In this document: positions 2,220-17,243 of the stretch, one piece after another
Layout: each line of letters begins with the position of its first letter
Position numbering within the stretch: position 1 is the first letter of the stretch
Assembly (NCBI GenBank): GCA_002011035.2
Contig: MTLY02000003.1
Coordinates: 241,194 to 305,193, forward strand
Origin: Candidatus Hecatella orcuttiae
Lineage (GTDB): Archaea > Thermoproteota > Bathyarchaeia > Hecatellales > Hecatellaceae
DNA: 64,000 bases
Reading direction: 5' to 3'
Made by a program: the position numbers and the translations under genes
The notes under the pieces: generated by a model
Told to the model about the DNA's origin: nothing
The model's database searches: none
What the model saw: the letters and a program-made list of their open reading frames with translations, nothing else

Positions 2220-2740
2220 GCCGGGCAGCCCCCGGCTTAGCCGCAGTCCGGCGTGAAGAGGCCGGAGAAGGAATGACCACCCGGAGAAGCCTGACCGGCA
2301 GGGGGGCTCAGGTTCCGGGTGCAACCGTGCCCTTGAGAGGCACAGGCCGGGTGGGGCGACCCCCGGGGCTGAGCTGAAAAGGCTGTGAACCCGGGGGCGG
2401 AAGTACAGGGAACCTTGAAGCCTCCCCGGAGGCCCGAGGCCGGCGGTAGAGCCGACGGCCTGTGAGCGGCTGAGGGGAGGCTGGGTTAGAACCCTAGAGC
2501 CGCAGGCGGTGAGGACCGCCAAGCTCCGAGCCTGCGGTCGCGGGGGCTGCCCCGAAGGGCCCCTGCGGGTAACTCGAGCATGTCAATCCCCAACATGCTT
2601 AGCCCCGCGTCTGAGGCGGTGTCTCGTAGGCCCCAAGGGGGGCTAGCGAGGTCTGTCCCCGGGCAGGCTTGGGCGACCAAGCCAATAGCCCAGCCTCCCA
2701 GGCGACTGGGAGGCGTGTCCACGGCGGGGCGAGGGTTTGC
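2220..2740 (+). ncRNA. Large GC-rich structured RNA (unidentified class)
   Basis: About 520 bases with no convincing protein frame but a dense series of hairpins. Examples are TCCGGC/GCCGGA (2246-2265), GTGCC/GGCAC (2328-2343), CCCCCGGG/CCCGGGGG (2360-2397), GCGGCT/AGCCGC (2466-2502), GGCGGT-GAGG-ACCGCC (2505-2520), GCATGT/ACATGC (2578-2598), GCTTGG-GCGA-CCAAGC (2668-2683) and GCCTCCCAG-GCGA-CTGGGAGGC (2693-2714). The last two are capped by GCGA, a GNRA tetraloop, which is a mark of folded RNA. The lack of frames with archaeal codon bias supports RNA. A group II intron was considered: there is a GTGCG near 2112 and a domain-V-like hairpin at 2496-2540, but no reverse transcriptase. RNase P and SRP signatures were not found. 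Confidence 0.65.
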
Positions 2741-2956
2741 ATGGCCAAACCCCAACGTCACCCTGACTACCCGGATGCACAGGCCCTTGTCGGGGTGAAG
2801 GCCTTGCAGGTTGTTCGAGTAGTGGAGGAGCTGCAGCCCGACAGCTTCACGCCAGACTTCACCTGGTGCCGGGTGGAGGTGCAGCTTCCAGACGGCTCCA
2901 GGGCGGTTTGGACGTTGCTGCTGTCGCCGGCCGAGCTCCGAAAATACGGACGTTAG
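2741..2956 (+). CDS. Hypothetical 71-residue protein
   Basis: Starts at ATG 2741, right after the structured RNA, with GGGGCGAGGG about ten bases upstream. It is predicted to be a small alpha/beta protein with a strand-rich middle (WCRVEVQLPDG) and a basic C-terminus. No family is recognised. It lacks an exact copy of the junction motif, so its translation may depend on the RNA region upstream. Confidence 0.55.
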   Translation: MAKPQRHPDYPDAQALVGVKALQVVRVVEELQPDSFTPDFTWCRVEVQLPDGSRAVWTLLLSPAELRKYGR

Positions 2957-2997
2957 TCCAAACCCCTCCTTTTTTGGCTCAATTCTCGGGGACAGCC

Positions 2998-3249
2998 ATG
3001 GAAGCCTTCACGGTGCCCAAATTCGACCTGCACATCCACGGAGGCCTGGTCCTCCGGCTCCGCGGCGGAGTGACCTTCCAGCGGCAGGGCGGCGGGTCGG
3101 CCGTCCTCATCCGCAACCACGCCTACACGGCCAGGCTCATCCGCCTGGGCGACTGCCCTTATCCGCTGCTGGTGGACGAAGACGGCGTGGTGGGCGTCGT
3201 CCCCAGGCTGCCGGCTAAGATAAGGCGGTGGCTGGGGGCGTTCCACTAG
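2998..3249 (+). CDS. Hypothetical strand-rich protein
   Basis: 83 residues from ATG 2998, preceded by ATTCTCGGGGACAGCC, the junction motif with its usual leader. The sequence alternates short hydrophobic strands (LVLRLRGGVTF, SAVLIRN, ARLIRLG, PLLVDEDGVVGVV) and ends in a basic helix, which suggests a small beta-barrel. No family is recognised. Confidence 0.6.
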   Translation: MEAFTVPKFDLHIHGGLVLRLRGGVTFQRQGGGSAVLIRNHAYTARLIRLGDCPYPLLVDEDGVVGVVPRLPAKIRRWLGAFH

Positions 3250-3295
3250 GCCGACCCCGTGGGCCTCCCTTTTTCTGCCTCGGGGGGACCACCGC

Positions 3296-3603: not shown

Positions 3604-4332
3604 ATGGCTAAGGCTAAGGGTAAAGTCGTCGAGCAGGTGCTCGTTCAGGCCGCCAAGCCCGGTCAAAGACGGCAGGTGGCCGAGGAGCTGAAGAAGGCGG
3701 AGGCGGAGGGCCGGCGGTTCCACGGCTTCAAAGCCGACCTCAGGTACACCAGCCCCGAGTTCACCGTCACAACGCCCATCCGCTACGAGAAGCTCACCGC
3801 CAAGGACGTGGAGGCCCGCATGAAGATCGTGCACCGCCACGTCAGCGGCGTCGAAGTCTCCCTCCGGCCGACACCCTACCACTGGGCGTACATGGACGCG
3901 GAGGGCCGGGAGTACCCGGAGGCCGAGGTCCGCCACTACCAGCTGCTCCCCGACGGCCGGGAGGTGGAGGTGCAACCGTTCCCCAGGACCAAGGTCTTGG
4001 AGGTCAAGAAGCTGCTGCCAGCCACCAGCCTCAGCGAGTTCCTCGTCGAAGGCCTCTACGAGGTCTGGTCCGACGCCCCAGGGCAGCTGCTGGAGTTCGC
4101 CGAATACCTCCAACGCAAGGACGCCATGGCCGTGAGCAAGCTGAGCTTCGGCCGGGGCTTCAAGGAAAGCTACGCCCTCATCTACCCCATCTTCCAGGAC
4201 GGCCGCTTCATCCTGGTGATGGCCCTGACCCAGAAGCGCGTCGAATACCGCCACTGGATGCCGGTGGAGGCTCAGGAGGCGAAGCCGAGGGAGGCTGTGC
4301 CCGTGGCCCAGTCGGTCTTGGAGGAAATCTAA
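3604..4332 (+). CDS. Ku-like DNA end-binding protein (putative)
   Basis: 242 residues from ATG 3604, preceded by TTTTCGGGGATTTTCG. The order of elements follows prokaryotic Ku: a DAEGREYPEAEV segment like the D-G-x-V of the Ku core, an RTKVLEVKKLLP segment, LSEFLVEGLYEVW, a helix with LLEFAEYL, then AVSKLSFGRGF and a closing pair of strands IYPIFQDGRFILVMAL. Ku homodimers encircle broken DNA ends and recruit a LigD-type ligase. An ATP-dependent ligase gene lies 3 kb downstream in the same train. The N-terminal 50 residues are basic and not part of the core. I recognise this by pattern only, so a remote relative is possible. Confidence 0.5.
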   Translation: MAKAKGKVVEQVLVQAAKPGQRRQVAEELKKAEAEGRRFHGFKADLRYTSPEFTVTTPIRYEKLTAKDVEARMKIVHRHVSGVEVSLRPTPYHWAYMDAEGREYPEAEVRHYQLLPDGREVEVQPFPRTKVLEVKKLLPATSLSEFLVEGLYEVWSDAPGQLLEFAEYLQRKDAMAVSKLSFGRGFKESYALIYPIFQDGRFILVMALTQKRVEYRHWMPVEAQEAKPREAVPVAQSVLEEI

Positions 4333-4935: not shown

Positions 4936-5466
4936 TTGGAAAAGCTCTTCACCGACCTAGCCTTCGCGCTATCCCCCACCATCATCACCCACCAAGGCGG
5001 TTGGGGAGACACCGTTCCAGAGTGGCTGGTCGCAGAGATAAAGCTACAGAGGCTCGCCGAGAACCTGAGGAGGCTGAAGGGTGAAGCCGTCGAGGAGGCC
5101 GGCGACGCCGAGGCTCTGGCCTACCTGTACACGGCCTTCCTGAGCGTGCCGCCCTCCGAGAAGTGGACGAGAATCTACTCCTACCTCCTCGGTAAGGTTG
5201 CCCGCGGCAGGCTCCGGGTTCCCTCAGAAATCGAGGTCAAGGAGCTCTCAGATTACGAGCAGGAGAAGCTCCGGGAGCTGAAGCGGTGGATTTACAGGAA
5301 GCGGGCTGAAAGGGAAAGGCAGCGGCGCGGAGAGGAAGGCCTCGGAGTGCTTCAGCCCCCAAACCGGGCTTCAGCCAGCCTCAGAGCCCGCAGGGCGTGG
5401 GTTAAAATCTACCGGAGGCGAGGCCAAGAGGATAAGGCCAAGGCTTTGGAGGAAGCCTTAGCCTAA
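4936..5466 (+). CDS. Helical protein with an AWVKI-type C-terminal tail
   Basis: 176 residues from TTG 4936, seven bases after TTTTTCGGGG. It is mostly helical, with a basic central region (RKRAERERQRRG). Its last 30 residues (RAWVKIYRRRGQEDKAKALEEAL) match the C-terminus of the PCNA-fusion protein at 15366-17243 (KAWVKIWLKRGRRDRAEQLADEL). This points to a shared interaction or targeting tail. Function is otherwise unknown. Confidence 0.65.
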   Translation: MEKLFTDLAFALSPTIITHQGGWGDTVPEWLVAEIKLQRLAENLRRLKGEAVEEAGDAEALAYLYTAFLSVPPSEKWTRIYSYLLGKVARGRLRVPSEIEVKELSDYEQEKLRELKRWIYRKRAERERQRRGEEGLGVLQPPNRASASLRARRAWVKIYRRRGQEDKAKALEEALA

Positions 5467-7257: not shown

Positions 7258-8260
7258 GTGAGCATGGAAGTGGCTGAGCTTAAACCCAAACTGAAGGCTC
7301 TGCGAAGTCTCAGGGAAGTCCCGTTTACAGGCGACACGTGGCTTCAGGTGAAAGCCGACGGAGAGCTGGCCTTGGTGAAGTTTGAGGGCGGAGAGGCCGA
7401 GGCGGTGAACCGCTGGGGCACCGTCCACAGGGGGCTGCCCTGCCTCCGAGAGTTCGCCGAGGCCCTCAAGGCCAAGAGGCTTCGAAGCTTGGAGGCCTTG
7501 GCCGAGCTGTACGCGGAGGGCCTCCGCCTGCCGGAGTTCAGAAAGACCCTGACCCGGAAGCCCGAGGCGGTGAAGCTAGGCTTCTTCACCCTCCTGGCGG
7601 TCAACGGCGCCGGGGTCAAGAACGACTGGCCCTGGCAGATGGGGGAGGCTGGAGTCTTGGCTTGCAGCCAGCCGCCTGGCGGGGCCTCTGCCCTACCGGC
7701 GGGTGGTCGGCCTGCAGGAGGCGGAAGCCTTCTGGAAGGAGTGGGTGGAGGGCCGCGGCTACGAGGGCGTCGTAGCCCGGACGCCCCGGGGAGGCTTCAA
7801 AGTCAAGCCGGAGCTCACCGTGGACGCCGCGGTGGTGGGCGTCAAAAAGACCGAGCGGCTGAGGGTGGGAAGCGTGGTGACAAGCCTCCGCCTGGCCTTG
7901 ATGAGCCCGGAGGGCGACCTGGTCCATGTGGGCGATGTCTCCAGCGGCATCGACCCGGAGACCGGGCGGAGGCTCCACGCCTTGGTCAAGCACTTCGCGG
8001 TGGGCGAAGACCGGGAAGCCTACCACGTCAGGCCGGTGCTCGTAGCCGAGGTGAGGTGCTTCGACGTATACCCCGGCCTGCGGCAGGTCTGGCGCTGGGA
8101 CGGCCGCCGGTACGCAGCCCGGCAGCCCAGAAGCTTCTTCAGCCTCAAGTCTCCGGTGTTGGTCAGGTTCAGGGAGGACAAGCAGCTGAGGCCTGAAGAC
8201 CTAGCCTTGGAGCAGATTCCCGAAGCAGGCCCTTTCTCTTTCGGGGAGGGGGAACCGTGA
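7258..8260 (+). pseudogene. ATP-dependent DNA ligase, interrupted by one frameshift
   Basis: Starts at GTG 7258 or ATG 7264, after CCTTTCGGGGACAGCC. The first frame carries the nucleotidyl-lysine motif I (LQVKADGE) and a segment like FDLLxLNG (LGFFTLLAVNG). It continues one frame over, after a GGGGG run at 7641-7645, with motif IV (YEGVVAR), motif V (FKVKPE), then an OB-fold-like domain (VTSLRLALMSPEG, DVSSGID) ending at TGA 8258-8260. Joined, it is about 330 residues, the size of a LigD-type ligase domain. Motif I has Glu where Arg is usual. With the Ku-like gene at 3604 it would form an end-joining pair. Either the frameshift is an error, or the gene is decaying or recoded. Confidence 0.65.
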
Positions 8261-8379
8261 AGCTCTGCCCTCGCTGCTCCAACGCCATCCTGGACATGCG
8301 GCAGGAGCTAGACCCCATGGGGCGGCCTGTCCAGTTTTGGCACTGCTCCCGCTGCAACCACCGGTGGACGGAGACGTAA
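8257..8379 (+). CDS. Zinc-ribbon miniprotein
   Basis: 40 residues from GTG 8257, overlapping the ligase stop (GTGA). CPRCSN near the start and CSRCNH near the end, followed by RWTET, give a TFIIS-like zinc ribbon. Its junction motif, CTCTTTCGGGGAGG, lies inside the ligase C-terminus, so the two are probably translationally coupled. Confidence 0.65.
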   Translation: MKLCPRCSNAILDMRQELDPMGRPVQFWHCSRCNHRWTET

Positions 8380-8394
8380 GCTTCCAGTTTCGGG

Positions 8395-8525
8395 GAAACC
8401 GGGTCCCCTGTAAGTCCACGCCTACCCCGCTTCAACCAGCGACTAAGGTAGGCTGAAAAGTGGCGTGGGGTTTAGGGCGGTTTCAGCCCACCGGCCCCAA
8501 AGGCTGGCTCCATTTTTTTCGGGGA
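8395..8525 (+). ncRNA. Small structured noncoding unit between two junction motifs
   Basis: No reading frame fills this stretch although both sides carry the junction motif (8388 and 8514). It can fold two ways: CCACGCC (8416-8422) with GGCGTGG (8462-8468), or GCCTACC (8420-8426) with GGTAGGC (8447-8453) around an inner CGCT/AGCG hairpin. Overlapping alternatives of this kind suggest a switch. It ends in a GCC/GGC stem and a run of seven T at 8513-8519. Confidence 0.45.
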
Positions 8526-8529
8526 TTTT

Positions 8530-8748
8530 ATGCCCATCTTAGGCTCGGCTGACTGCTACGAGTGCGAGGGGGAGAAAACCGTCCGGCTGGTCGTCGACGG
8601 CCGAGGAGTCTGGAGCCGGTGCTTCCGGTGCGGCTTCACCGAGTGGGAGTGGGCCCTGGGCGACAACCCCGCCTACCTGGACTGCCTGGCGGAAAAATAC
8701 CGCGTCGACAAAGAAGCCATCGTAGACGCCCTCGAAGAGGCGGGGTGA
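8530..8748 (+). CDS. Zinc-finger protein, possible 5' part of a recoded gene
   Basis: 72 residues from ATG 8530 after TTTTTTTCGGGGATTTT. CYECEG (residues 9-14) and CFRCGF (31-36) form a zinc ribbon like those of phage primases, followed by acidic helices (DCLAEKYRVDKEAIVDALEEAG). It stops at TGA 8746-8748. Skipping the T of that TGA continues directly into the open frame starting GAC CCT at 8747, which has good codons but no start of its own. Confidence 0.65.
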   Translation: MPILGSADCYECEGEKTVRLVVDGRGVWSRCFRCGFTEWEWALGDNPAYLDCLAEKYRVDKEAIVDALEEAG

Positions 8749-9043: not shown

Positions 9044-10167
9044 ATGGAAGGCCGAAGTTTAACCCCAAGCCAGCAAGCCTACCTGAAGAAGCTGGGTGTC
9101 TCCGACCCCGGCCGGTTGACCGCCGGGCAGAAGGCCTACCTCACCATCCTGGGCCGTAGGGAAGGCGTCGAGCCTCCCAAGCCCGTCAAAGCCTCAGCGT
9201 ACCAGCCTCTGGGCCCCGAGGAGCTGGCGGCCAGGGGTGTGGGAAGCCTCAGGTTCGACCGGGCCGCCGACCTGACCTGGGAGCGCTACGGCATCGTGGA
9301 GGTGCCCATAGCCTACGGAGGCCAGCCCTCCGGCTACAAGGCCGTCATCCGCAAAGGCCAGCTGGTTCAGATAGCCGGCCGGGGCTACCGCCTCCTGCCC
9401 AACGAGGAGGTTGTCCAGCTGGCGGACGAGACCGCTGAAGCCCTGGGGGCCAAGCCCTTCACCGAGTTCCGAGGCCGCTGGTTCGCCCCCATGGGCAACC
9501 ACGTCATCTACAACCGGGCTGAGACGCAGGTTCACGCCCTCTACGCCTTCGACGAGCCGGTGAAGGTGGAGGGCGTCGACACGGTGCACCTGGGCTTCGC
9601 CGTGCACAACAGCATAGACGGCAGCTGCGGCTTCGGTGTTGGCGCCTTCACGTTCCGACAGTCTTAACAGTCGCCCGGAAGTGGGTGGAAGTCTTAAAAA
9701 GGGCGGCTGTAAGACCGGAAAACGCCTGCGCCAACATGGTGCTGATGGGCCTCCGCGGCTACTCCATGCCCTTCGACGAGCGGCGGGTGCTGGCCTGGGT
9801 CTACCAGCGCCACACCTCCAGGCTCAGGGTGGACAGGCCCAGCCTCCAGGACACCATCCTCAGGGTGGTGGACCGGGGGCGGGAGGTCCTGGAAGCCTAC
9901 CGGCGGATGGCCCTCGAACGGCTCAGCGAACCCGTAGCCCGCCGGATAGCCGAGTCGGAGCTGCCCCTCCGGGTGCTGCCCGACTTCATCGAAGTCGAAA
10001 CCCTCGAAGACGGCCGCAGGGCGCTGAAGGGGTTCAGCCCCCAGGCAACCCTCTGGGACGCCTACAATTCCGTCAGCGCCGCCATCTGGCACAACGCCAA
10101 GTCGGACATCTCCACCAAGCTCGACCAGTTCAACGTCCTCCACGCAGCCCTGCCCCTGGCACGGTGA
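9044..10167 (+). pseudogene. DUF932-like phage/plasmid protein in two frames
   Basis: Starts at ATG 9044 after CCTTTCGGGGACCACC. The N-terminal 60 residues carry a twice-repeated SLTPSQQAYLKKLG / LTAGQKAYLTILG unit. The middle (GRGYRLLPNEEVVQLAD, HNSIDGSCGFGVGAFTF) and the C-terminal part (CANMVLMG, LWDAYNSVSAAIWH) follow the DUF932 order. The first frame stops at TAA 9665-9667; the second is open well before 9685 and ends at TGA 10165-10167. One -1 shift between about 9630 and 9660 joins them to roughly 370 residues. DUF932 proteins are common on phages and plasmids; their role is unclear. Confidence 0.6.
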
Positions 10168-15365: not shown

Positions 15366-17243
15366 ATGGACAGCTCTAAGACAGACCAACCGACCAAGCA
15401 GGCTAAAGGGCGACTCCGAGTCGACGGCCCCTTCCTCAAAGGCCTCATCGCCTGGATGCAGCGGGTGGCCGGAGAGGCCACCATCACCCTCGACGCCGAA
15501 GGCCTCCGGTTCGCCTACATGGACCCCAGCCATGTGGCCATGGCCGCGGGCAGGCTGACGCCCCAGGCCTTCGCCGAATACGCGGTGGCCCAGGCCGGCT
15601 GCTTCGCCGTGGACCTGGCAGACCTGGCGAAGGCGCTCAAAGGCGTCAAGAAAGGCGTGGAGGTCGGCGTCTCCGTGGACGAGAAACATGTGGCGGTAAG
15701 CTTCGACGGCGAAACCGTCCGCCTGCCGGTGCTGCCGCCCAGCGACGAGGCAGACCCACCCGAGCCCAAGCTGGCCCACGAGGCTCGGCTGAGGCTGATG
15801 CGCGGAGCCCTGCTGGACGCGGTGCGGAAGGCGGGGCAGGTGAGCGACCAGCTGGTCCTGAAGGCCACGCCCAACGCCCTCCTGGTCAGGGCGTTCAGCG
15901 AAACAGGCGACTACGAGAAAACCCTAGACCGCCACGGCGCATACATGCTGGACTTCCACAGCCCCTCCAACCGAACCGTCAAAGCCCTCTACGGAGCCTC
16001 GTTCCTCGAAGACCTCCTCACCTTCCCCGCGGAGCTGGTCACCGTCGAATTCTCCACCGAAAAGCCCGTGGCCCTCACCTTCGAGGACTACGCCTGGACG
16101 GTTCGAGGGTGGCTGGCTCCGAGGATCGGAGGCGAATACGAGCCCCGGGTCACGGTCAGGCTCTTGGAGGGCCACCCGGGAGTCTACGACGAGGACGGCC
16201 AGTTCCACGGAGCCCAAGGCTTCAAGGCCGGTGAAATCGCCACCCTCCCCCGGTCTGCCGCGGCCAGGCTGCTGGAAGACGGCAGAGCCGCCCTGAAGCT
16301 GACCCCGGACCCGGCTGAGGGCGTGGAGCCCCTGCCCCTGGGGGCGGTGAAGCTGAAAAGGCGGAGCAAGGGCAAAGGGTGGCTGCTCAGCCGCAGCGGA
16401 GACACGGCCAAGGACGACGCCGAGCAGCTGGCAGGGAGGCTGCTGAAAGCCCTGGAGGCGGCGGAGGGGGACTACCCCGGCAGGCTGCTGGCCGCCGAGA
16501 AACCCTACACCGGGCAGGAGGCCACCCTCTACGTCATGGCGGAGCGCAGCCGGAAAAGCTACGCCCACGCCGGCCGCTACGGGCTGCCGGTGGTGAAGGT
16601 TCTGGAAGTCGCCGAGGAACCCTTCGGCGAGCACCCGTCCTACGGCTACACCGACTGGAAGCCGCTGGAGGCGGAAGGCGAAGAAGCTGAGCAGGCTGCC
16701 AAGGCCGCTGCCGCCGAGCAGGCGGAGGAGGCGGAGGCTGGCGAGGAAGAAGGCGGAGGCTGCGAGTGGAGCCGCAGCGAGGAGGCTGACCGATACAGGG
16801 AGGAAATGCGCCGTCTGGACGAGGAGCTGAGGAAACTCGGCCTCCTGGAGGAGCTGCGAGGCCTTGAAACCCTCAAAGTCAGAGAGCTGGCCGAGAGGGT
16901 GAAAGCCCAACCCGGCGAAGCCGTCCTCGCCACCCTAGACCGGGCCCTAGCCGTCCACGAGGAGTTCTACCGCAAACTCTACGCAGCCTACGGATGGAAA
17001 CTCGAAGACCTAAAGGAAGGACAGGCCCCCGAGGTCTCCGACATTTTAAAGATGAGGCGATGGCTCACGGGATTCCTGAAGCGGAAAGCCGAAAAACCCG
17101 AGCCCAAGCCCGAAGGCACAAGGCGGGCTAAGAAGGCGTGGGTGAAGATTTGGCTGAAGCGAGGCCGGAGGGACCGAGCCGAGCAGCTGGCCGACGAGCT
17201 GGGCATCAGCCTGGAGGCTGTGGAAAAGGAGCTGGAAGGCTAA
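15366..17243 (+). CDS. PCNA-like sliding clamp fused to a long C-terminal region
   Basis: 625 residues from ATG 15366, chosen because TCTTCGGGGATACCC directly precedes it. Residues 1-265 follow archaeal PCNA: GLRFAYMDPSHVAMA near residue 50, a DLADLAKALKGVKKG segment, an acidic interdomain region, and LAPRIGGEYEP where PCNA ends with LAPRIE. Normal PCNA is about 245 residues. Here 360 more follow: a basic segment with AGEIATLPRSAAARLLEDG, an Ala/Glu-rich linker (about 440-480), helices, and a tail KAWVKIWLKRGRRDRAEQ shared with the protein at 4936. PCNA tethers polymerases and nucleases to DNA, so the extension may bring an element-specific partner. Confidence 0.75.
   Translation: MDSSKTDQPTKQAKGRLRVDGPFLKGLIAWMQRVAGEATITLDAEGLRFAYMDPSHVAMAAGRLTPQAFAEYAVAQAGCFAVDLADLAKALKGVKKGVEVGVSVDEKHVAVSFDGETVRLPVLPPSDEADPPEPKLAHEARLRLMRGALLDAVRKAGQVSDQLVLKATPNALLVRAFSETGDYEKTLDRHGAYMLDFHSPSNRTVKALYGASFLEDLLTFPAELVTVEFSTEKPVALTFEDYAWTVRGWLAPRIGGEYEPRVTVRLLEGHPGVYDEDGQFHGAQGFKAGEIATLPRSAAARLLEDGRAALKLTPDPAEGVEPLPLGAVKLKRRSKGKGWLLSRSGDTAKDDAEQLAGRLLKALEAAEGDYPGRLLAAEKPYTGQEATLYVMAERSRKSYAHAGRYGLPVVKVLEVAEEPFGEHPSYGYTDWKPLEAEGEEAEQAAKAAAAEQAEEAEAGEEEGGGCEWSRSEEADRYREEMRRLDEELRKLGLLEELRGLETLKVRELAERVKAQPGEAVLATLDRALAVHEEFYRKLYAAYGWKLEDLKEGQAPEVSDILKMRRWLTGFLKRKAEKPEPKPEGTRRAKKAWVKIWLKRGRRDRAEQLADELGISLEAVEKELEG

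Follow-up and report, generated by a model that had tools for sequence, protein, structure and literature searches.

The window analysed here is a stretch of 64,000 nucleotides from the Bathyarchaeia archaeon Candidatus Hecatella orcuttiae (contig MTLY02000003.1, positions 241,194 to 305,193 of the forward strand; a 731-kb contig of a 1.75-Mb genome), and coordinates without a further label are positions in this window. In it, an integrated archaeal mobile element carries a row (train) of about 20 kb of small genes, all features of which are given on the forward strand.

A large non-coding stretch at the head of a leader-tagged gene train

The train starts at a TATA-box-like promoter at 2051-2063 (TATATTTAAATAT), from which a start of transcription at about 2082-2090 was inferred. 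A divergent copy of the same block (TTTGCTGAGAA.ATATTTAAA) lies at about 1960-1980, so that the divergent promoters within 1950-2080 share this block in inverted orientation, possibly as an operator pair. The promoter is followed by a 35-aa ORF (2112-2219), and the next credible ORF, of 71 aa, covers 2741-2956 and has no Pfam or PHROG match. The stretch 2220-2740 is thus intergenic, and the ORFs found on both of its strands were regarded as chance ORFs. We refer to this stretch as RNA A. Downstream of it, between 2986 and 22422, lies an array of leaders in which a CCYTTTTTTCGGGGA-type motif (a pyrimidine run plus UUCGGGG) precedes about 35 genes, with about 35 occurrences between 2986 and 22417. 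Of the 21 forward-strand TTTTCGGGG in the whole genome, 15 lie within 19 kb of this train.

The train and its surroundings show further features. A 62-nt insert (9660-9721) splits a gene (9044-10167) that is one ORF in two relatives. Removing it restores FTFRHACANMV in frame (353 aa), and the insert folds with a 3-nt bulge, a short helix and a long stem at the junctions, like an archaeal bulge-helix-bulge intron in a protein gene. A second ORF-less cassette lies between two leaders at 8396-8518 and contains self-complementary segments (CCACGCC/GGCGTGG and CCTACC/GGTAGG). An ATP-dependent DNA ligase C-terminal domain (Pfam) at 7258-8260 is in a different frame from the upstream ORF, suggesting a possible frameshift. 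The 176-aa protein (4936-5466) and the PCNA-like protein (15366-17243) end in similar motifs (RRAWVKIYRRRGQ and KKAWVKIWLKRGR, respectively). Upstream of the window (locus L020, 11800-18100), type III-like CRISPR genes were found together with an array with the repeat GTTTCAATGACTCAAAAGAAGAGGAGACTACAGAAAC.

Predicted structure of RNA A

The preliminary description, made from the sequence alone, had proposed a large structured RNA with at least nine strong hairpins, two of them capped by GCGA tetraloops, in about 520 bases without coding signal. This observation largely holds. The minimum free energy of 2220-2740 is -299.7 kcal/mol against a mean of -266.7 (sd 7.55) for dinucleotide shuffles (z -4.37, 0/100 shuffles as low). 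Most 521-nt windows of the train score between +1.3 and -2.4. However, the next window (2741-3261), which is coding, scores -5.1 with 20 shuffles and the window at 9501 scores -3.5, so the energy of RNA A alone is suggestive but not unique and does not prove an RNA. About eight to nine local hairpins of high probability were predicted. Both GCGA-capped hairpins were confirmed, at 2666-2683 (7 bp) and at 2693-2714 (9 bp, the last before the closing strand), and none of 500 shuffles contained as many (expected 0.016).

The predicted fold, which rests on a single sequence without covariation, consists of a 5′ domain, a hairpin and a 3′ domain. The 5′ domain (2223-2552) is closed by GGGCAGCCCCCG/CGGGGGCUGCCC (12 bp, p 0.95) and by GCCGCAG/CUGCGGU (7 bp, p 0.93). 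The hairpin at 2576-2600 (GAGCAUGU-CAAUCCCCA-ACAUGCUU) exposes UCCCC in its loop (2587-2591, unpaired probability 1.0), which is complementary to the GGGGA of most leaders. The 3′ domain (2602-2730), which contains both GCGA-capped hairpins, is closed by GCCCCGC/GCGGGGC (p 0.69).

RNA A matches no known family and has no detectable sequence relative

When searching Rfam, no match to RNA A was found at the gathering threshold or at E<=10 with permissive filters, including the models of group I and group II introns, archaeal RNase P, GOLLD, ROOL and OLE. No tRNAs were found nearby. The preliminary description had also noted that a hairpin near 2496-2540 recalls domain V of group II introns. This was not borne out. 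Domain V has 34 nt with an AGC/CGC triad, a 2-nt bulge and a GNRA loop, whereas the candidate has a bulge of 9 nt and a GAGG loop and is not formed in the minimum-energy fold. In addition, no intron-encoded protein is present and the stretch lies between two complete ORFs, not inside a gene.

BLAST searches of RNA A against phages, plasmids and 256 genomes of the same class gave only chance matches of 20-25 nt. A single-sequence CM (R2) found no relative in the 256 class genomes, and two such models (R1 and R2) found none in the loci collected or in the candidate elements; the RNAs B, C2 and D2 described below lay in the searched loci and were not hit. Scans of IMG/VR with train proteins, with a leader pattern and with a piece of RNA B returned only distant tailed-virus contigs or nothing, without the RNA. 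As the IMG/VR sequences and the genomes searched are partly fragments, this absence of relatives of RNA A is weak evidence.

Structured regions head leader arrays in three related elements

The preliminary description did not connect the RNA with the TTTTCGGGG leader, which turned out to be the useful clue. We then followed the train instead, and its proteins led to other archaeal contigs. The protein encoded at 3604-4332 is shared with genomes G191 (1.4e-18) and G139 (3e-8), and the protein at 9044-10164 with genome G470 (7.8e-12). Three of these elements carry leader arrays of the same type, each with 640-700 nt of predicted structured, non-coding sequence at the head of the train. In element B (locus L070, contig C16 of G470), the leaders read TTTTTTTATTTCGGGG and are preceded at 7835-8535 by a 700-nt region with z -16.4 (RNA B), which has 68% GC over 7892-8535 in an AT-rich element. 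In element C (locus L016 of G191), the leaders read CCCTTTTTCT..YGGGGTG and the 700-nt region C2 (13545-12847, minus strand) has z -8.7. In element D (locus L019 of G139), the leaders read CTCCTTTTTCTG..YGGGGTG and the 643-nt region D2 (11901-11259, minus strand) has z -3.1. L016 and L019 have a further structured region upstream (C1, and D1 with z -3.8), before homologous genes. In a fourth candidate, element E (locus L017), several genes are preceded by another leader, GATTTCTCTATGGGATG, as if each element had its own tag, but the candidate RNA region is not convincingly structured (z -1.1).

G470 belongs to the same phylum as the host of the window but, by its kinship label, not to its class. 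RNA B, like RNA A, has no match in Rfam. A CRISPR array (locus L083, contig C114 of G491) in a genome of the same genus as G470 holds a spacer 88% identical over 42 nt to RNA B, which indicates that the element is foreign to that lineage and that this very region is targeted.

C2 and D2 are homologous and covary

C2 and D2 match by BLAST in collinear pieces (70% over 104 nt, E 6e-4; 90% over 20 nt) and sit next to homologous proteins (39% identity, E 5e-31). Their alignment folds to -87.2 kcal/mol against -54.0 +/- 6.1 for shuffled columns (z -5.5, 0/200), and 22 of 86 pairs differ on both sides. Sliding the partners drops the pairing from 100% to 35-51%. The structure was derived from the alignment it was scored on, so these counts lean towards it. 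A 3′ hairpin keeps the loop CCACCCCCAA invariant while its stem differs between C2 and D2.

On the other hand, A and B have no significant BLAST match to C2, D2 or each other, no match between A and B, C2 or D2 goes beyond 12-14 nt, and A and B are linked by position, shared element genes and leader type only. RNA A thus shares with C2 and D2 the position at the head of a leader-tagged train in a related element, but not sequence. In A, B and C2 the 3′ domain is predicted to be closed by CCCCG/CGGGG (GCCCCGC/GCGGGGC, ACCCCGA/UCGGGGU and CCCCCGAUU/AAUCGGGGG, respectively), with a GCGA-capped hairpin towards the closing strand, and in B the closing strand is the first gene's leader itself. This may be homology or chance among GC-rich folds.

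Complementarity between exposed C-rich stretches and the leaders

The leaders differ between the elements after GGGG: A follows in 22 of 34 leaders of the window, UG in 20 of 23 leaders of elements C and D, and U in 6 of 11 leaders of element B. Exposed C-rich stretches matching these were found in the predicted folds, namely UCCCC in A, CACCCC in C2, CACCCCAA in D2 and ACCCCCCCGA in B. For C and D the complementarity (CACCCC against GGGGUG) is good and is the best accessible complement to any leader tried. For RNA A it is weak, as UCCCC against GGGGA covers only 5 nt and is no better than chance matches elsewhere in the leader. We also considered CCCCGAA at 2550 as the stretch of RNA A that pairs with the leader, but it occurs in 13% of shuffles of A and is mostly paired in the fold, and it was dropped as main evidence. 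In C2/D2, the invariant CCCCCAA can equally pair with the invariant UUGGCGGGG inside the same RNA, so an intramolecular pseudoknot is a live rival to pairing with the leader.

A role of the leader as a Shine-Dalgarno sequence is doubtful, since in L070 the GGGG lies 0-2 nt from several start codons. Some L070 leaders have a TATA box about 25 nt upstream, so the motif could also be an initiator.

Discussion

The interpretation in the preliminary description is partly supported: a large structured RNA of unknown class inside the train is supported by the absence of an Rfam match and by the large structured regions at the head of three other leader-tagged trains, and the comparison with GOLLD and ROOL is a fair analogy of size and context, whereas membership of either family and the group II hint are not supported. 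That the RNA is real is likely. We suggest that it is made from the train's own promoter and belongs to a so far undescribed type of element-encoded RNAs of about 500-700 nt at the head of gene trains whose genes all carry the same short leader. In the leading but unproven explanation, the RNA would control expression of the whole train by base-pairing, in which a C-rich hairpin loop or linker pairs with the GGGG(A/UG/U) of the leaders, in cis with the first gene or in trans with the others. The analysis, which is computational throughout, itself showed the position of RNA A, the absence of known families, the fold energy, the recurrence in four elements and the covariation of C2/D2. Transcription, the pairing and the direction of the effect (most likely activation or protection of element mRNAs) are inferred from sequence. 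A more far-reaching and doubtful possibility is that the RNA serves as a private anti-leader, which recognises one short leader before every element gene and so switches or licenses expression of the whole train in trans, independently of the host's Shine-Dalgarno system, with leader and loop evolving together.

Less likely, the RNA could be a purely cis-acting leader RNA of the operon, a riboregulator or a processive antiterminator like HK022 put or the EAR element, which are also structured RNAs at the head of long operons. It would fold as the polymerase leaves the promoter and let it pass the oligo-U tracts that precede each gene, the GGGG being incidental. RNA A sits just after the promoter and a 35-aa ORF, before more than 35 genes each preceded by a run of U, which terminates transcription in archaea, and the same head position holds in B, C and D. 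However, RNA A lies after the first gene, genes precede the RNA in L016 and L019, no known antiterminator family matches, put and EAR are much smaller, RNA A is archaeal, and the invariant C-rich loop of C2/D2 is not explained.

Also unlikely is a structural or scaffold RNA like GOLLD or ROOL, placed early in the element but unrelated to the leaders, forming an RNA-only assembly or binding ribosomes or proteins. GOLLD and ROOL are large phage-encoded RNAs of unknown function that form cages (PMC12286853), and their size (500-800 nt), multi-branched fold, GNRA loops and location in mobile elements are similar. However, they are found in bacterial hosts and tRNA islands, whereas RNA A is linked to a leader-tagged gene train in archaea, has no tRNAs nearby and does not match the GOLLD, ROOL or OLE models. 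This reading also does not explain why leader arrays and head RNAs occur together.

That 2220-2740 is merely a GC-rich spacer with chance hairpins is improbable: RNA A alone has no relatives and its z is matched by a neighbouring coding window, but the excess of GCGA hairpins and the much stronger RNAs at the same position in three related elements argue against it. A degenerate or unusual self-splicing intron or other known ribozyme, suggested by the GNRA loops and the domain V likeness, is largely refuted by the evidence given above.

Searches of the open-licence literature found no description of such an RNA or leader, and in a survey of Bathyarchaeia viruses (PMC10848311) the words noncoding RNA, intergenic and promoter do not occur. 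Large ornate RNAs of mobile elements are known mainly from bacteria, and almost none has a function. Here such RNAs recur at the head of gene trains that share one leader, in archaeal elements from two or more classes, which gives a concrete and testable idea of what a large RNA of this type might do, namely pair with the leader. If right, it would be an element-wide expression system run by an RNA.
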